From: Thermodesulfobacteriota bacterium
GTDB lineage: Bacteria; Desulfobacterota; BSN033; UBA1163
Reading direction: 5' to 3'
Length of the DNA: 5,318 nucleotides
Assembly (NCBI GenBank): GCA_030024065.1
Contig: JASEIE010000271.1
Span: 1 to 5,318, forward strand
Both the position numbers and the translations under genes were made by a program. Of this stretch, positions 1 to 5,318 are shown in pieces. Below the pieces are notes generated by a model. That model saw only the letters and a program-made list of their open reading frames with translations, had not been told where the DNA came from and searched no databases. The stretch's first letter is position 1. Every line of letters starts with the position of its first letter.

Positions 1-125
1 CCTTCGACAGCATAAAAGAGAGGGACGAAGGCAAACCAGGCCAGAAACTCGAGATCGAAATTGGGAAAGGAGAGAATGAGGAGAATGCCCGAAAGGAGGC
101 TGAACAGATAATCCAATTTTTTCAT
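1..125 (-). CDS. lnt: Apolipoprotein N-acyltransferase, N-terminal fragment (runs off the left edge)
   Basis: Read on the minus strand from an ATG at 125-123, 41 codons are open to the window edge. The peptide starts MKKLDYLFSLLSGILLILSF and continues with a P-N-F-D-L-E-F-L-A-W-F-A-F-V-P-L stretch. This is the hallmark start of Lnt: a hydrophobic first membrane segment, an 'SFPNF' turn, then 'LAWFAFVPL' entering the second segment. Lnt is an inner-membrane nitrilase-like enzyme that transfers the third acyl chain to the N-terminal cysteine of lipoproteins. The catalytic Glu-Lys-Cys domain lies outside the window. The gene is divergent from the ArsR-rhodanese gene and shares its 112-bp intergenic region. 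The Shine-Dalgarno is weak (only an AGAAG-like stretch just before the ATG), so the start rests mainly on the family match. Confidence 0.85.
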   Translation of the reverse strand, partial: MKKLDYLFSLLSGILLILSFPNFDLEFLAWFAFVPLFYAVE

Positions 126-180
126 TGCTTCTATCTTATAGAATTAAAGGATTTTTTTCAAGAAAACACATTACTTGACA

Positions 181-196
181 AATAAGAATTTTTATT
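181..196. promoter_or_regulatory. AT-rich imperfect palindrome, candidate ArsR-family operator
   Basis: AATAAGAATTTTTATT is a 16-bp palindrome with 14 of 16 positions symmetric (one mismatched pair). It lies between the -35 and -10 of the plus promoter and touches the minus-strand TATAAT. AT-rich palindromes overlapping the promoter are typical ArsR/SmtB/BigR operators, and the adjacent gene encodes such a regulator, so autoregulation is the natural inference. A second inverted repeat, AGAATTT (185-191) with AAATTCT (210-216), is centred near 200 and could be an alternative or additional site. Confidence 0.4.
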
Positions 197-202
197 ATAG
201 CA
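194..202 (-). promoter_or_regulatory. Candidate extended -10 promoter for lnt
   Basis: On the minus strand this reads TGCTATAAT, a perfect TATAAT -10 hexamer preceded by the TGN extended -10 motif. No good -35 is seen at 16-18 bp, which is usual for extended -10 promoters. It would start transcription near position 187 and give lnt a leader of about 60 nt. It overlaps the plus-strand promoter elements and the 181-196 palindrome, so both directions could be controlled by one bound repressor. Prediction by motif only. Confidence 0.45.
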
Positions 203-237
203 TTCAATTAAATTCTAAATTAAAAGAGGACTGAAAT

Positions 238-909
238 ATGAAGACCACAAATAGGCTATTTAAGGATGCCATTTACGAGCAGTTTGCCCGAATTGGGAAA
301 GCTGTTTCAAGCCCTAAAAGGCTTGAGCTCCTTGATCTTCTCTGCCAGGGGGAACGGACAGTCGAGGTCTTAGCCAAGGAGGCCGGGATATCATTTGCAA
401 ATGCTTCTCAGCATTTGCAAATCCTTCGATCCGCGCATCTGATCGAATCTGAAAAAAGGGGTCAATTTGTGACCTATCGACTTACTGATCAGGCGGTTTG
501 TGATTTTGTTCTTGCAATGCGTGTCCTTGCGGAGAGGGAGTTGGCGGAAGTGGAACAGATTAAACGTCGATTTCTCGAAGGAAAAGAGGGATTGGAACCA
601 GTAAATCGTGAGTCTCTAATAGAGAGGGTAAAAGAGGGGAAGGTAGTTGTGCTGGATGTTCGGCCGGTGGAGGAGTTTTTGGCCGGGCACATCCCTGGAG
701 CTGTCTCAATTCCTCTTGAAGAAATAGAGCAGAAATTGTCTGAACTGCCAAAGGATCAGGAAATTGTGGCTTACTGCAGAGGGCCCTACTGCGTTCTTGC
801 TATCCGGGCGGTTGAAATTCTTCGTGAAAAAGGATTCCATGCGTTTCGGATGGAGGAAGGAGTCCAGGATTGGCGCGCCTTGGGTTTTCCTGTGGCTGTA
901 GGAAAATAA
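238..909 (+). CDS. ArsR-family transcriptional regulator fused to a C-terminal rhodanese domain
   Basis: The protein has 223 aa. Residues 12-100 form an ArsR/SmtB winged helix: S-P-K-R-L-E-L-L-D-L-L near 25-35, recognition helix ISFANASQHLQIL at 51-63, and wing G-Q-F-V-T-Y-R-L at 75-82. Residues 125-220 are a single rhodanese domain with D140-V-R142, G150-H-I-P-G-A155 and the active loop C180-R-G-P-Y-C185, with C180 the persulfide-forming nucleophile. ArsR-rhodanese fusions are a known architecture, expected to couple sulfur transfer to DNA binding. No classic ELCVCDL metal motif is seen; instead C36 and C88 are the only cysteines in the DNA-binding half and could form a redox or persulfide sensor pair like those of SqrR/BigR (inference). 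The ATG is supported by AGAGGA at 225-230, 7 nt upstream. It heads the cluster, 31 nt before the selenoprotein gene, and probably regulates it. Confidence 0.92.
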   Translation: MKTTNRLFKDAIYEQFARIGKAVSSPKRLELLDLLCQGERTVEVLAKEAGISFANASQHLQILRSAHLIESEKRGQFVTYRLTDQAVCDFVLAMRVLAERELAEVEQIKRRFLEGKEGLEPVNRESLIERVKEGKVVVLDVRPVEEFLAGHIPGAVSIPLEEIEQKLSELPKDQEIVAYCRGPYCVLAIRAVEILREKGFHAFRMEEGVQDWRALGFPVAVGK

Positions 910-912
910 TTC

Positions 913-925
913 ATGATCAGATCAT
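913..925. repeat. Perfect 13-bp palindrome between the first two cluster genes
   Basis: ATGATC-A-GATCAT is perfectly symmetric around A919. It fills the short gap between the regulator stop codon (907-909) and the GGAGGAG ribosome site (927-933) of the next gene. It could be a secondary operator, a weak mRNA hairpin (5-bp stem, CAG loop) or chance. It has no T-run, so it is not an intrinsic terminator. Confidence 0.4.
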
Positions 926-940
926 CGGAGGAGACTTATC

Positions 941-2680
941 ATGAAACACTTAAGAAATATTATGTTAACCCTTATATCCATTGGCATGGCTCTTGGGTAT
1001 CTCAGTTTCACTCGCCCGAATATAAACCCAAAAGAGACTACCTGGGATGAGATGCTCATCGATGCCCAAAAAGGGGGGTACAAGGTCGTCACCACGGAGC
1101 AATTGCGGGAACTTTATATTGACAACAAGTTGGAAAAACCCCTCCTGATTGATACCCGGCAGGATTGGGAATACCGGGCAGGACATATCAAGGGTGCCCT
1201 TAATTTTTCCATTGAACCGACCTGGTATTCCATGTGGTTAAAGCGAGAAAAACTTAAGGCTTTTCTGGGGCCGGATAGGAATCGCTCGATCGTATTTTAC
1301 TGAGCTGGTTTAGCTTGAGTTCGTAGCGACTCAGCGGCCAGGTTGGCTGTAAAACTTGGTTATAAAAATGTCTATCGTGATCCCAGAGGTTACCCGGATT
1401 GGCAGAAACTCGGTCTTCCAGTAGAAACCGCTCCGCTGAAATATGCTGAAACCAACATTGCCTCCAAAACACCAGGACCCATTTATGGATGGGGCATAGT
1501 CTGGACCCTTATGGGTATCTTCGTAGGTGGAATGGCCCTCAATTTGACACCCTGTGTCTATCCTTTAATCCCTGTTACACTCTCTTATTTCGTTGGTCAA
1601 GCCGGAAGGCGGAGTCAGCGGGGACTCATCATCCGTGGGTTATGTTATCTGTTAGGTCTGGCCACTACAAATTCGGCGCTCGGGGTGGTGGCTGCCTTAA
1701 CTGGGGGACTTATGGGAGCAATACTCCAGCACCCTATCGCCCTCTTGTTCGTTTCGGCCATCCTAATATTTTTTGCAAGCAGTCTCTTCGGGTTCTGGGA
1801 ATTACGTCTTCCCGGCAACCTGATGCAGTTTGCCTCGAAATCTTATACGGGTCACTTCGGAGCGCTCTTCATGGGACTGACCCTCGGATTGGTGGCTGCA
1901 CCCTGCATCGGACCTTTTGTCCTCGGATTGCTCACCTGGGTGGGCAGCCTGGGAAGTCCTTGGTTAGGTTTTTTAGTCTTCTTCACCTTAAGCATGGGAC
2001 TGGGACTCCCGCTCTTTTTCTTAGCTATCTTCTCCGGTCAATTTAAGAGGCTTCCCCGTTCAGGAGGATGGATGCTATGGGTCCGTAAACTTCTGGGTTG
2101 GGTCATGGTGGGCATGTCTGTCTATTTCTTGAGATCCCTCTTGCCAGAATTTTTTTATGTAATCCTCCTTTCTTGCATCGTCCTTCTCGCAGGATTGCAT
2201 TTGGGTTGGTTTAGCAAGGATAGAGCTGGATTTAAGGCTTTCGGATGGATGAAGACGGTGGTTTTTATGGTTTGTCTCACCGCGGCACCCTATCTTTTTA
2301 CATCATGGATGATGCGCGGTCCGGGGTTGGCCTGGAAGCCCTATTCAGATCAAATACTAACCGAAGCTCAAAGGCTGAAAAAACCGGTCATCATCGATTT
2401 CTATGCTGAATGGTGTGCTCCCTGCCGGGAACTGGATAACATCACCTTTCGCCATCCCGAAGTGGTAAGGCAGTCCGCAAATGACTTAATTATGGTGAAA
2501 GTCGATCTTACCCGGGGAAGCGATTCGATTCATAAACGTCTCCTGCACCGGTTTGAGATCAAAGGGGTGCCCACAGTGGTGTTTTTAGACAGAGAGGGCA
2601 GGGAAAGAAAAGATCTGCGACTGGTCGATTTTCAGCCTGCCGACCAGTTTATCCTTCGTATGATGGAGATCAAAAGATGA
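941..2680 (+). CDS. Putative di-selenocysteine rhodanese-DsbD-thioredoxin fusion protein (TGA recoded at codons 121 and 126)
   Basis: Read through two in-frame TGA codons, the gene encodes 579 aa. Residues 7-24 are a membrane anchor or uncleaved signal. Residues about 48-160 are a rhodanese domain: D71-T-R73, G81-H-I-K-G-A86, then active loop Y120-U121-A-G-L-A-U126-V-R-S, and closing GYPDWQKLGLPVE. Residues about 183-456 are a DsbD/CcdA-type membrane core with about eight segments and the paired cysteines LTPC205 and AAPC322-IGP. Residues about 465-579 are a thioredoxin domain with W-C492-A-P-C495 and the cis-proline turn G-V-P544-T. DsbD moves electrons from cytoplasmic thioredoxin to periplasmic partners; here an N-terminal rhodanese sits where the DsbD alpha domain would be. 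GGAGGAG (927-933) lies 7 nt before the ATG. The frame is identical before and after both TGAs, so no frameshift is needed. Without recoding it would be read as a rhodanese lacking its nucleophile (941-1303) plus a protein from a TTG at 1343 with no good ribosome site. A pseudogene is the main alternative, made unlikely by intact downstream domains. Confidence 0.85.
1301..1303 (+). other. In-frame TGA at the rhodanese nucleophile position, predicted selenocysteine 121
   Basis: TGA directly follows S-I-V-F-Y, the beta strand that leads into the rhodanese catalytic cysteine. It aligns with C180 in Y-C-R-G-P-Y-C of the regulator encoded just upstream. Translation in the same frame resumes with A-G-L-A and, after the second TGA, with V-R-S-D-S-A-A-R-L-A, the expected helix after the active loop. 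Replacement of a catalytic thiol by Sec is the classic selenoprotein pattern. Confidence 0.85.
1316..1318 (+). other. Second in-frame TGA, predicted selenocysteine 126
   Basis: This TGA lies five codons after the first and aligns with the second cysteine (C185) of the C-x4-C loop in the upstream regulator's rhodanese domain. Both cysteines of the motif therefore appear to be replaced, giving U-x4-U. An error or nonsense mutation would have had to hit exactly the two cysteine codons and nothing else in about 1.7 kb. Confidence 0.8.
1316..1333 (+). promoter_or_regulatory. Candidate hairpin downstream of the first TGA (possible bacterial SECIS)
   Basis: UGAGU (1316-1320) pairs with ACUCA (1329-1333). 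A single U (1321) is bulged, then CG (1322-1323) pairs with CG (1327-1328) around a UAG loop. The hairpin begins 12 nt after the first TGA, a spacing suited to a SelB-bound bacterial SECIS, and has a bulged U as in the E. coli fdhF element. The apical loop lacks the usual G in its first two positions, so support is partial. The second TGA is part of the 5' arm. Confidence 0.4.
1334..1350 (+). promoter_or_regulatory. Candidate bacterial SECIS hairpin serving the second (and perhaps both) TGA codons
   Basis: GCGGCCA (1334-1340) pairs with UGGCUGU (1344-1350) as seven continuous pairs, two of them G-U wobbles, closing on a GGU loop (1341-1343). If the top A-U pair opens, the loop is AGGUU, close to the AGGUCU apical loop of E. 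coli fdhF. The first loop G is 22 nt after the second TGA and 37 nt after the first, within the range described for bacterial SECIS elements. The element lies inside coding sequence, as is normal in bacteria. Confidence 0.6.
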
Positions 2681-2697
2681 AACCTGAAAAAAGGAGT

Positions 2698-2706
2698 AGG
2701 AGGTGA
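2698..2706 (+). promoter_or_regulatory. Strong Shine-Dalgarno that decides the polyferredoxin start
   Basis: AGGAGGTGA is fully complementary to the 3' end of 16S rRNA. The AGGAGG core ends 8 nt before the ATG at 2712. A second site, AAGGAG at 2691-2696, lies 6 nt before an in-frame GTG at 2703, so a three-residue longer product is possible. The ATG is preferred. Confidence 0.6.
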
Positions 2707-2711
2707 AGGCA

Positions 2712-3386
2712 ATGGTTACTTTAACAAAGGCAATTAAAAAGCGAACTTCCCGGCAACTTCTATTCTTTTGGGTGTTACCTCTTGCCGTAATCGGCGGATG
2801 GCGCTATCCCATTCTGGGATATTTCCTTCCACTCTGTATGATGGCTGGAATGGGGATCGCTCTATTTAAAGGAAGATACTGGTGTGACTGGTTATGTCCA
2901 CGGGGTAGTTCATGGGATCTTCTTTTAAGCCGGATTAGTTTAAAGAAGAGAATTCCCCTCCTGTTCCGAAATACAAAATTCAAGATATTCATCATGATGG
3001 TTATGATGACGGTTTTATTTACTCAACTTCCAAGAGTCTGGCCGAGTATTGACGGGATGGGACGGGTCTTCGTGATGATGCTAAGTGCGACCTCCGCATT
3101 CGGAATCATTCTCGGAATCCCGACCCACCACCGGAATTGGTGCACCTATTGTCCCGTAGGGACGATGGGAAATTGGTTGGGAAGGGGAAAGTATCCATTG
3201 ACGATCAGTCCCGAATGCAATGAATGCAAAAATTGTGATACGGTCTGTCCGATCCAGATCCAACGATGGCAGTATCGTCCTGAAAAGGGGGAGCCTACTA
3301 TTGTTCCGGAATGGGATTGTCTGAAGTGTGGTCTCTGTATTGAGGCATGTCCCCAAAAGGCTTTGGCTTTTAAGATCAATGATTAG
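2712..3386 (+). CDS. NapH/YccM-like membrane polyferredoxin (4Fe-4S binding protein)
   Basis: The protein has 224 aa from the ATG (227 from GTG 2703). About four membrane segments lie at residues 15-30, 33-53, 90-108 and 118-137. They are linked by the cysteine motifs W-C58-x3-C62-P and W-C144-x2-C147-P-V-G, typical of the NapH/CcoG/YccM family. The C-terminus carries two ferredoxin motifs: C169-x2-C172-x2-C175-x3-C179-P and C203-x2-C206-x2-C209-x3-C213-P, for two [4Fe-4S] clusters. The basic N-terminus and an even number of segments would put the clusters in the cytoplasm. Such proteins pass electrons between the quinone pool or cytoplasmic donors and membrane partners. Located 31 nt after the DsbD-type gene, it may supply electrons to that membrane core (inference). 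The exact partner is unknown. Confidence 0.88.
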   Translation: MVTLTKAIKKRTSRQLLFFWVLPLAVIGGWRYPILGYFLPLCMMAGMGIALFKGRYWCDWLCPRGSSWDLLLSRISLKKRIPLLFRNTKFKIFIMMVMMTVLFTQLPRVWPSIDGMGRVFVMMLSATSAFGIILGIPTHHRNWCTYCPVGTMGNWLGRGKYPLTISPECNECKNCDTVCPIQIQRWQYRPEKGEPTIVPEWDCLKCGLCIEACPQKALAFKIND

Positions 3387-3398
3387 GAGAATAAATTT

Positions 3399-4550
3399 AT
3401 GAATTCCCGTCAGATTTATCTTGATTTCAACGCCTCCACTCCGATTGCTCCTGAAGTGGCGGAGGCGATGAAGCCATTCCTTTCAGAACATTACGGCAAT
3501 CCCTCAAGTCATCACTGGGCAGGGGAGCCGGCTAAAGAGGCTGTTGAACAGGCTCGAAGACAGGTTGCTGACCTTCTCCAATGTCGCCCCGATGAGATCG
3601 TTTTTTCCAGTGGAGGGAGTGAATCCAATAACCACGCCATTAAAGGAATCTTTTTTACGTTAAAGGAAAAAGGGAACCATATCATCACGACACAGATTGA
3701 GCATCCGGCTGTGATCAATCCCTGCCGGTTTCTCGAAAGGCTTGGAGCGGAGGTAACCTATGTCGGTGCGGACCAATATGGAAGGGTCGATCCTGAAGAC
3801 ATCCGAAAGGCTATTACTCCTAAAACGGTCCTTATCACAGTGATGCACGCCAATAATGAAGTGGGGACCATACAACCAATCGAAGAGATCTCAAAGATTG
3901 CGAAGAATCATGGGATTCTTTTCCATACCGATGCCGCCCAATCCGTTGGAAAAATAAAAACAACAGTTGATGATTTAGGAGTCGATCTGTTGTCCATAGC
4001 CGGTCACAAACTCTATGCCCCGAAGGGAGTCGGGGCGTTGTATATTCGTGAAGGAACAGCTATCGAATCTCTCATCCATGGGGCAGGTCATGAATCAGGC
4101 AGAAGGGCAGGAACCGAGAATGTCCTTTTGATTGCCGGACTGGGAAAGGCCTGTGAAATTGCAAAAAGGTTTTTAAATGATTCAAAGATACTTGATTTAA
4201 GGGATCGTTTTTGGGGACTCCTTAAAAATAATTTTGGTTCAAAAGTCGTCCTCAACGGGCACCCCATCCATCGGCTTCCCAATACGCTCAATATAAGTTT
4301 TGCTGGAAGAGTCGGGTCAGAAATTTTAGATCGATTAGAAGGAGTAGCCGCCTCCACCGGTGCGGCATGCCACTCCGGTTCGATTGAATTGTCGCCTGTG
4401 CTGAAGGCAATGGGAATATCTCCAGAAGTGGGGATGGGTGCCATCCGATTCAGCCTGGGAAGGATGACAACCTTCCCGGAACTGGAAAGGGTGATAGGTC
4501 TCCTTAAAAAAATTGTCTATCAAGATACCATAGGCAGAATAAACTCATAA
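3399..4550 (+). CDS. PLP-dependent cysteine desulfurase / selenocysteine lyase-like enzyme (NifS/IscS class)
   Basis: The protein has 383 aa, full length for the NifS/IscS fold-type I aminotransferase family. The N-terminus Y-L-D-F-N-A-S-T-P and G-N-P-S-S are canonical. PLP residues are visible: S-G-G-S-E-S-N-N at 71-78, H102 (ring stacking), N-N-E-V-G near 152-156, D178 in H-T-D-A-A-Q, and the Schiff-base lysine K204 in G-H-K. R-A-G-T-E-N is at 236-241. The catalytic cysteine is C324 in S-T-G-A-A-C-H-S-G. The A-C-H-S context and S-P-V-L-K-A-M-G-I that follow resemble, from memory, selenocysteine lyase (SCLY) and its bacterial relatives more than housekeeping IscS. The reaction is removal of S (or Se) from cysteine (or selenocysteine) as an enzyme persulfide. 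AGGAGA at 3385-3390 overlaps the previous stop codon and lies 8 nt before the ATG, so the two genes are probably cotranscribed. No iscU or other Fe-S scaffold gene follows, suggesting a dedicated role. Confidence 0.9.
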   Translation: MNSRQIYLDFNASTPIAPEVAEAMKPFLSEHYGNPSSHHWAGEPAKEAVEQARRQVADLLQCRPDEIVFSSGGSESNNHAIKGIFFTLKEKGNHIITTQIEHPAVINPCRFLERLGAEVTYVGADQYGRVDPEDIRKAITPKTVLITVMHANNEVGTIQPIEEISKIAKNHGILFHTDAAQSVGKIKTTVDDLGVDLLSIAGHKLYAPKGVGALYIREGTAIESLIHGAGHESGRRAGTENVLLIAGLGKACEIAKRFLNDSKILDLRDRFWGLLKNNFGSKVVLNGHPIHRLPNTLNISFAGRVGSEILDRLEGVAASTGAACHSGSIELSPVLKAMGISPEVGMGAIRFSLGRMTTFPELERVIGLLKKIVYQDTIGRINS

Positions 4551-4675
4551 TCGCACTGGGATTACTTGATAAAACCAACTGGGTTATTGGGAAGTCAGAA
4601 GGGAATTTTGACGCTTTCAACAAATTGAGCAGAAGAAGGCCACCGGTATTTGAAAGACCATGGCGGGAGTGGTAA
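4550..4675 (+). pseudogene. Possible remnant of a Fis-type HTH from a sigma-54-dependent activator
   Basis: In the +2 frame after the desulfurase stop, the translation reads I-A-L-G-L-L-D-K-T-N-W-V-I-G-K-S-E-G (about 4550-4603). From memory this resembles the first helix of the C-terminal Fis domain of NtrC/FhlA-type activators ('ALEKTNWVIGGPxG'). The expected continuation (GAA..L....TL..RM.KLGI) is not seen, and the frame ends at TAA 4673-4675. No AAA+ domain is present. It is therefore at best a short decayed fragment, and the match could be chance. Confidence 0.25.
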
Positions 4676-4678
4676 ATA

Positions 4679-4707
4679 TTGAAGTGGACCAGATATTTGT
4701 TTATGAT
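4679..4707 (+). promoter_or_regulatory. Candidate sigma-70 promoter for the response regulator gene
   Basis: TTGAAG (4679-4684; 4 of 6) is followed after exactly 17 bp by TATGAT (4702-4707; 5 of 6). It would give a leader of about 75 nt before the ATG at 4791. It makes the two-component gene a separate transcription unit from the upstream cluster. No convincing intrinsic terminator is visible between 4551 and this site. Motif-based only. Confidence 0.4.
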
Positions 4708-4790
4708 AATAGGCAATTAGAGATATTTCTCGGGTTACCGACTTAAGGGACCTTTTTCCATGACGGGGGAAAATTATTTACGGTTTGAGC

Positions 4791-5318
4791 ATGAATAAGG
4801 AACCAATAAAAATTTTGCTGGTTGAGGATGATAAAGGGATCGTCCGATTTGTTAAGAAGGGGCTATTGGAAAATTCTTTCTCTGTTGATGTGACCTCCAA
4901 CGGTGAGGAAGGGTTAAAATTAGCTCTTTATAAAGGTTATGAACTGATCATCCTCGACATCCTGCTTCCAAAGATGGACGGAAGAGAAATCTTGAGAAGG
5001 CTCAGAGAGAGGGAGATCCAAACCCCGGTCATCTTTTTGACGGCCAAGGATTCAGAGAATGATATTATCAATGGTTTGAATTTAGGGGCGGATGATTACC
5101 TAACTAAACCTTTCTCCTTTAACGAATTGCTGGCCAGGATTCAGGCTCTCCTTAGAAGGGGGAAAACCATCACCTCTTTTTCAAGGTTACAAGTGGCCAA
5201 CCTCATTTTAGAAACGGAAGGTCATCGGGTTTTTCGGGAGAAGGCAAAGATCGAACTCACTCCTAAAAAATATGCCCTTCTCGAAAGTTTTATGAGGTAT
5301 CCGGGACAAATTCTTACC
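4791..5318 (+). CDS. OmpR/PhoB-family response regulator, C-terminus beyond the window
   Basis: 176 codons are open to the right edge. Residues 7-121 are a receiver domain: acidic pair D13-D14 after I-L-L-V-E, phospho-acceptor D56 in L-I-I-L-D-I-L-L-P, T84 in F-L-T-A-K, and K106 in D-Y-L-T-K-P-F. The sequence from residue 133 on, with E-L-T-P-K-K-Y-A-L-L-E at 155-165, is the start of the winged-helix DNA-binding domain of the OmpR class; recognition helix and wing lie outside. It should be a phosphorylation-controlled transcription factor, with a sensor kinase likely downstream. The ATG at 4791 gives the natural N-terminus but has no clear Shine-Dalgarno (the purine-rich GGGGGAAAA lies about 20 nt upstream). 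An in-frame TTG at 4785 has none either. A functional link to the sulfur/selenium cluster is not shown by the sequence. Confidence 0.9.
   Translation, partial: MNKEPIKILLVEDDKGIVRFVKKGLLENSFSVDVTSNGEEGLKLALYKGYELIILDILLPKMDGREILRRLREREIQTPVIFLTAKDSENDIINGLNLGADDYLTKPFSFNELLARIQALLRRGKTITSFSRLQVANLILETEGHRVFREKAKIELTPKKYALLESFMRYPGQILT

Follow-up and report, generated by a model that had tools for sequence, protein, structure and literature searches.

Two predicted selenocysteines in the rhodanese loop of a TsoB-family rhodanese/DsbD fusion and two conserved hairpins downstream of their UGA codons

The TsoB selenoprotein poses two questions, namely how two UGA codons lying 15 nt apart are decoded and what role a membrane-powered rhodanese with a U-x4-U loop might have. 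We addressed both on a 5,318-nt stretch of DNA from a Thermodesulfobacteriota bacterium (GCA_030024065.1, contig JASEIE010000271.1, positions 1-5,318, forward strand), hereafter the window, in which a sequence-only reading had proposed a rhodanese with selenocysteine (Sec) at both loop cysteine positions. The gene and its two UGA codons are as follows:

941..2680, plus strand: tsoB (NF045694, 942 bits; Pfam domains; model matches to DsbD gamma structures and to rhodanese 6mxv)
1301..1303, plus strand: UGA 1, codon 121, predicted Sec at the first position of the rhodanese loop (TGA in 75 of the 75 covering loci)
1316..1318, plus strand: UGA 2, codon 126, predicted Sec at the last position of the rhodanese loop (TGA in 75 of the 75 covering loci)

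The earlier claim that two in-frame TGA codons, 12 nt apart, are the sole interruptions of the frame was correct: read directly from the window sequence, frame 941-2680 (579 codons) is interrupted by TGA 1301-1303 and TGA 1316-1318 and nowhere else, the first bases of the two codons being 15 nt apart. When tsoB is read through, a single protein of 579 residues results, in which Pfam assigned a rhodanese domain to residues 54-156, a DsbD transmembrane domain to 187-400 and a thioredoxin-like domain to 465-550, thus confirming that the frame runs unshifted into the rhodanese C-terminus and the DsbD and thioredoxin parts. The predicted layout of the product comprises an N-terminal anchor helix, the rhodanese domain with its UxxxxU loop, the DsbD-type transmembrane domain and a C-terminal thioredoxin-like domain with a CAPC motif. 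Because the terminator of tsoB is itself TGA (2678-2680), UGA carries both meanings within the same gene.

The loop of the read-through protein is F-Y-U-A-G-L-A-U-V-R-S. Both TGA codons align with cysteines in three Cys-form relatives, whose loops are YCTGQTCVRS (P0014), YCAGPDCVRS (P0016) and YCADLSCSRS (P0105), and with the loop cysteines encoded by the upstream ArsR-rhodanese gene (Y-C-R-G-P-Y-C), so that the proposed placement of the TGAs at both rhodanese-loop Cys positions was borne out. Two further relatives depart from this pattern: in P0015 Gly and Arg replace the two Sec (YGHGLARVRS), and P0084 lacks the entire loop segment. They are either loss variants or assembly artefacts.

The protein was assigned to a family by its score against NF045694, the NCBIfam profile "rhodanese/DsbD fusion-like selenoprotein TsoB", which returned 942.1 bits against a cut-off of 805 and aligned residues 6-578 with profile positions 2-572 of 572. 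As this score lies over the cut-off and TsoB is listed in the available part of a 2026 review (PMC13188914) as rhodanese-like form 5, UxxxxU, with two Sec, the window holds a further member of a family already described. The earlier expectation of a single Sec in rhodanese selenoproteins is outdated.

The conservation of the TGA pair was evaluated in two ways. A scan of genome contigs provided 80 loci, 75 of which cover the site and five do not; TGA occupies both codons in 75/75, a count that favours close kin, since these loci are the best 80 of 578 relatives. Genomes were also drawn from the phylum and the class and searched with NF045694. The first phylum draw (395 genomes) contained 22 genomes over the cut-off with 23 matches, 22 of them with two TGAs and one stop-free; the second contained 3/395 genomes over the cut-off, all three with two TGAs; the class draw contained 56/389, with two TGAs in 59/59 matches. 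Pooled over the three draws, in which genomes G127 and G183 were each counted twice, 84 of the 85 over-cut-off family matches have two TGAs. The sole exception, on contig 128 of genome G298, is a second copy with TGC/TGT (L115), and this genome also has a two-TGA copy (L090). All fetched loci pooled gave 157 TGA/TGA rows, 123 distinct Sec rows among them, and one TGC/TGT row. The suggested search for aligned Cys/TGA pairs in homologues thus returned TGA/TGA in every covering locus and, in a few relatives, cysteine in place of both TGAs.

These counts bear on the alternative that the TGAs are not selenocysteine codons at all, the gene being broken, the sequence erroneous or UGA being read as Trp. 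Gene callers do split tsoB: 115/120 homologues among the matches listed are 436-483 aa long with 75-78% query cover, and six such short homologues that were fetched all begin after UGA 2. Because its products are shortened in this way, annotations can easily overlook the family. However, the TGA pair recurs in 75/75 covering loci and 84/85 over-cut-off matches, the Cys forms have Cys and not Trp, tsoB itself terminates at TGA, SelB and tRNA-Sec are present in relatives, and covariation at synonymous sites is found downstream of the UGAs. Frameshift, pseudogene, sequencing error and code change were rejected on these grounds, the TGA counts excluding chance or sequencing error as the source of the pair, and we regard this alternative as a whole as extremely improbable.

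The Sec machinery was surveyed in the genomes of relatives, 24 of them with a tsoB locus (25 loci had been asked for and L002 was left out). SelB scored over its cut-off in 23/24 and tRNA-Sec over its gathering score in 22/24, 20 of the latter with at least 61 bits. Control genomes gave SelB-like matches in 14/14 (over cut-off in 2/14) and tRNA-Sec matches in 14/14 (over gathering score in 5/14), hence weak matches of either kind prove little. L001 is, with 81% identity, the closest relative on the contigs fetched, and its genome contains selA, selB, selC and selD, with 631 bits for SelA, 361 for SelB, 79 for tRNA-Sec and 368 for SelD, whose gene has one TGA of its own. Taken together, the TGA pairs, the Cys forms, SelB and tRNA-Sec in relatives and the SECIS-like hairpin described below strongly support the double-Sec part of the sequence-only reading, and double Sec at codons 121 and 126 is very likely; the interpretation as a whole was supported in part.

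The survey also returned a second selB adjoining an extra selC-like tRNA in five loci, L117 (genome G022), L119 (G023), L116, L118 and L120. In L117 and L119 this tRNA has the anticodon GCA (Cys), in the other three TCA; G023 is the genome of Desulfacinum infernum (DSM 9756) that also holds locus L066. Recoding of Cys codons by such selC-like tRNAs has been reported.

RNA structure downstream of the UGA codons was analyzed with RNAalifold on 84 distinct sequences spanning codons 117-146, which showed two hairpins and no others:

1319..1330, plus strand: HP1, a weaker conserved hairpin, GUU(CGUAGC)GAC (RNAalifold consensus, codon preference and one compensatory change)
1334..1350, plus strand: HP2, a SECIS-like hairpin of six pairs, 1334-1339 with 1345-1350, and loop 1340-1344, AGGUU (covariation; -9.4 kcal/mol)

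The consensus energy over codons 122-138 was -11.3 kcal/mol, compared with a mean of -1.1 after synonymous resampling and of -5.0 after permutation of codons within columns, and none of 200 resamplings and none of 200 permutations reached the observed value. The HP2 loop starts 21 nt past UGA 2 and 36 nt past UGA 1, its stem starts 15 nt past UGA 2, and the stem could be drawn with seven pairs and a GGU loop if the A-U closes, each loop distance then increasing by 1 nt. For comparison, the SECIS rules in the available part of PMC13188914 place the loop 16-37 nt from the UGA on an upper stem of at least four pairs.

Pairing was assessed in a chosen set of 55 loci, comprising the window and 54 loci from the 80 that were fetched, in which 99.0% of cells pair. 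Cells changed on both sides numbered 31, against 7.7 in shuffles (0/500 reached 31) and 0-4 when the partners were slid, while three pairs showed a double change, against 1.7 in shuffles (8/500 reached three). In HP2, two pairs join synonymous third positions, and these were counted in 122 of the 123 distinct Sec rows (one has no letters there). Pair 132.3-136.3 is standard in 119/122 sequences and occurs as six standard pair types (GC 74, AU 32, GU 6, CG 5, UG 1, UA 1, with 3 unpaired), and pair 133.3-135.3 is formed in 122/122. In a corrected mutual information analysis of codons 112-156 (135 columns) these two pairs ranked first and second, with z 34.1 and 20.6 respectively; the third-ranked column pair (z 12.0) is not a standard pairing. 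Changes were then placed on a tree built from protein residues 150-579, that is, outside the hairpin region. For 132.3-136.3, 11/19 changes were double on one branch and 16 ended in a standard pair; for 133.3-135.3, 7/8 were double and eight ended in a standard pair. Controls with partners shifted by one codon gave 0/20 and 3/22 double changes, and six other control pairs gave 8 to 28, but in none of the six did as many as half of the changes lead to a standard pair.

The HP2 loop was CGGGU in 61 sequences, CGUGU in 46, AGGGU in 7, AGGUU in 4, AGUUU in 2, and AGUGU and CGGGC in 1 each, all 122 corresponding to the SECIS-type [CA]G[GU]NN. Codon 134, for Arg, was never CGC, CGA or AGA (0/122), codons that account for 1571/3152 Arg codons elsewhere in the genes. 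The third loop base is G or U in 122/122 sequences of HP2, whereas it is C or A in 98/123 of HP1, which sets HP2 apart as the SECIS-type loop. The SelB-binding signal for UGA 2 is most likely HP2, which probably serves UGA 1 as well.

The stability of HP2 in single sequences depends on the stretch that is folded. The window folds into HP2 with -9.4 kcal/mol; shuffles were as good in 49/200 cases for window 1319-1354, likewise in 49/200 for L077, and in 3/200 for 1330-1354, and longer single stretches prefer other structures when folded. A longer hairpin at about 1336-1361, favoured by folding single window stretches, was discarded because it is absent from the 84-sequence consensus. An Rfam search of the window at E values up to 1 gave no match. 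The TGC/TGT copy L115 keeps the HP2 stem and, being the sole Cys-form DNA copy, does not discriminate on a coupling between hairpin and Sec. In L056:6304-6400 both TGAs are kept and an in-frame deletion takes the HP2-forming codons, which, if real, makes this locus a natural test case.

HP1 showed a different pattern. Its inner pairs are standard in 123, 119 and 121 of 123 sequences, with breaks at 127.3-130.1 in 2/123 and at 127.2-130.2 in 4/123. The stem can be extended by pairing UGA 2 (1316-1318) with 1331-1333, these outer pairs being standard in 110, 117 and 98 of 122. GTC, which makes up 29% of Val codons elsewhere, encodes Val127 in 76/83, and GAC (42% of Asp codons elsewhere) encodes Asp130 in 82/84, a strong codon preference indicating that HP1 is also under selection. 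Covariation was confined to one compensatory event, C-G to G-C, in three sequences. When serine was set aside, the 14 most constrained conserved columns all fell within codons 120-146. Serine columns were rejected as evidence of RNA constraint, as AGY/TCN columns also rank high elsewhere (281, 351). Synonymous constraint was also seen 3' of HP2, at codons 139, 140 and 146 (window 1355-1378); a search of codons 112-156 found no pairing partner for them and no further strong covarying standard pair.

The single-Sec genes of the partner proteins provided a reference for spacing. In TsoA genes (36 sequences) a GG-loop hairpin has its loop 20 nt past the UGA, AGGUG in 34, and two further small hairpins are predicted 5 and 47 nt past the UGA. 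In TsoC genes (70 sequences) the GG loop of the hairpin lies 23 nt past the UGA, with a weak consensus energy of -2.4. Compared with these 20 and 23 nt, the HP2 loop is at a normal distance from UGA 2 (21 nt) and far from UGA 1 (36 nt).

This difference in spacing led us to consider whether a single SelB-binding hairpin may decode both UGAs, with HP1, which overlaps UGA 2, acting as a folding spacer whose melting would reset the reach of HP2. Folding of HP1 would take 12 nt out of the path between HP2 and UGA 1 if the inner stem alone forms, or 18 nt if UGA 2 is paired as well, leaving about 24 or about 18 nt. According to this proposal HP1 would stay folded while UGA 1 sits in the ribosomal A site, reducing the 36-nt path to about 18-24 nt, and would melt once the ribosome advances to UGA 2. 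If true, it would be a ribosome-driven ruler enabling double selenocysteine insertion. A spacer hairpin may be unnecessary, since 36 nt is near the end of the 16-37 nt range in the available part of PMC13188914 but still within it, and we put the proposal forward tentatively, as a possible reading with somewhat less than even chances.

The same data can be arranged as two SECIS elements, HP1 serving UGA 1 and HP2 serving UGA 2, which would leave the reading of the protein unchanged. Exactly 15 nt separate the stem of HP1 from UGA 1, and likewise that of HP2 from UGA 2; the start of the HP1 loop, 18 nt past UGA 1, satisfies the 16-37 nt rule given in the accessible text of PMC13188914, and the first two positions of this loop include G in 122/123 sequences; and codons 127 and 130 rank 4th and 8th among the most constrained of 196 conserved columns. 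On the other hand, HP1 combines this spacing, the G and three inner pairs with a loop that has no G[G/U] preference, C or A standing where HP2 has G or U; its G accompanies a nearly invariant Arg codon; the L057 loop is AUCAGU, with no G there, yet both UGAs are kept; and three inner pairs fall short of the four or more that the upper-stem rule of the same review, as far as its text was available, prescribes. We consider two SECIS elements rather unlikely. Whichever arrangement applies, the RNA architecture, one clear SECIS-type hairpin and a weaker hairpin at an equal distance from UGA 1, is testable.

The neighbourhood of tsoB was then examined for indications of function. The genes around it in the window are:

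238..909, plus strand: ArsR/SmtB-type regulator with a C-terminal rhodanese domain and an all-Cys C-R-G-P-Y-C loop, TGC/TGC (Pfam HTH_5 and Rhodanese)
2703..3386, plus strand: NapH-like membrane ferredoxin-type protein (under the NapH/MauN cut-off, 75 of 213 bits)
3399..4550, plus strand: NifS/IscS-like cysteine desulfurase (under the NifS cut-off, 465 of 531 bits)

The regulator scored 45.3 bits against TsoR (NF045707), below the cut-off of 115, and has an extra rhodanese domain. Homologues with 61-89% identity over 217-223 aa lie upstream of tsoB on the same strand in 8/80 loci (L001, L006, L011, L028, L031, L037, L039, L049) and on the opposite strand in two more (L003, L054). In these eight loci and the window the distance from the start of this gene to UGA 1 is 1035-1130 nt, and the loop is C-R-G-P-Y-C in 9/9. 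Downstream of tsoB, a cysteine desulfurase homologue occurs in L001 (82% identity) and L034 (62%), and the NapH-like gene has a single weak homologue in the 80 loci (L047, 28% identity). L001 resembles the window in that tsoB stands between the ArsR-rhodanese gene and the cysteine desulfurase. The window ends inside a response regulator gene (4785-5318), related to the heavy-metal type with 187 of 279 bits. A motif search of 76 tsoB loci, the window counted in and some loci being short stretches, found the TsoA motif (LULAxC, upstream) in 36/76 and the TsoC motif (N[ED]PxGxxU, downstream) in 53/76, and neither in the window. The TsoA and TsoC HMMs found neither protein in the L001 genome, while the same searches match in 4 and 5 of 6 genomes, that of L001 being one of the six.

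An ArsR/SmtB-type metalloregulator next to tsoB suggests that U-x4-U might bind a soft metal or metalloid (e.g., Hg or As species) and not sulfane sulfur. The family regulator TsoR is indeed named a metalloregulator, the window has an ArsR-type regulator, and the available part of PMC13188914 states that Sec in some recent families may be metal ligands. However, the rhodanese domain on the regulator and the downstream cysteine desulfurase favour sulfur, and the DsbD part implies electron delivery and not just binding, which makes metal handling unlikely.

To explore the role of the fusion, an AlphaFold2 model was calculated from 29 sequences (mean pLDDT 74.6, pTM 0.49). The model begins with a helix at residues 2-23, which is read as a putative membrane anchor. 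Foldseek matched it locally, with TM-scores by query of about 0.2, to DsbD gamma (1uc7, 2fwg and the alpha-gamma complex 1vrs) and to rhodanese 6mxv; no DsbD membrane domain is named among the 50 matches listed. DsbD takes electrons from thioredoxin in the cytoplasm and passes them via its membrane domain to the gamma domain and finally to the N-terminal alpha domain, which is the electron acceptor. As the rhodanese domain occupies the place of DsbD alpha, the U-x4-U pair would be the acceptor, and the earlier label of sulfurtransferase is probably too narrow, the position pointing to a reductase.

On balance we favour, with reasonable but limited confidence, a TsoB member in which a rhodanese-DsbD-thioredoxin fusion carries Sec at both UGAs, the two Sec likely forming a redox pair that the DsbD part keeps in the reduced state. 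The rhodanese domain would be periplasmic in place of the DsbD N-terminal acceptor domain. Cytoplasmic thioredoxin would supply the electrons, which would cross via the membrane domain and reach the Sec-Sec (or Sec-S-Sec) pair by way of the C-terminal CxxC domain. Once reduced, this pair might strip off sulfur (or selenium) in an oxidised form such as sulfane sulfur or polysulfide, with release of sulfide, a substrate suggested by domains and neighbours only. The loop may also form a diselenide or selenenylsulfide or carry a perselenide, as the sequence-only reading proposed. The upstream ArsR-rhodanese protein may sense such oxidised sulfur via the all-Cys version of the tsoB loop. The idea of a DsbD-like reductase with a selenium acceptor site is testable.

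As TsoB is already catalogued, a rhodanese loop with double Sec does not in itself constitute a novelty; the available part of PMC13188914, which cites Haft and Tolstoy 2025 (mSystems) for TsoB, was the only item naming TsoB as a selenoprotein among the matches listed in a literature search, and the available parts of PMC9312934 and PMC8318568 make no mention of a U-x4-U rhodanese. Our analysis adds the RNA architecture and the ArsR-rhodanese context without TsoA or TsoC, and claims priority for neither.

Compared with known systems, the protein agrees with TsoB (NF045694) in its full-length score over the curated cut-off and in the U-x4-U rhodanese loop with two Sec described in the available text of PMC13188914, and differs in that the window has neither the TsoA nor the TsoC motif, both common partners. 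With DsbD (NF001419) it shares the transmembrane and C-terminal thioredoxin-like domains, which align over residues 186-576 with 240.2 bits, and a C-terminus whose best solved matches are DsbD gamma; however, this score is under the cut-off of 330, and a rhodanese domain with two predicted Sec replaces the N-terminal acceptor domain. Single-Sec rhodaneses (e.g., NF041203, CxU) have the same fold and Sec in or near the active loop according to the part of PMC13188914 available, but carry one Sec in another motif, and the tsoB product scored 30 of 115 bits against NF041203. Finally, HP2 resembles a bacterial SECIS in being a stem-loop in the coding region after the UGA, with an NG[G/U] loop, 21 nt from UGA 2 and -9.4 kcal/mol, and differs from it in that two UGAs spaced by 15 nt precede it and a further small hairpin lies in between.
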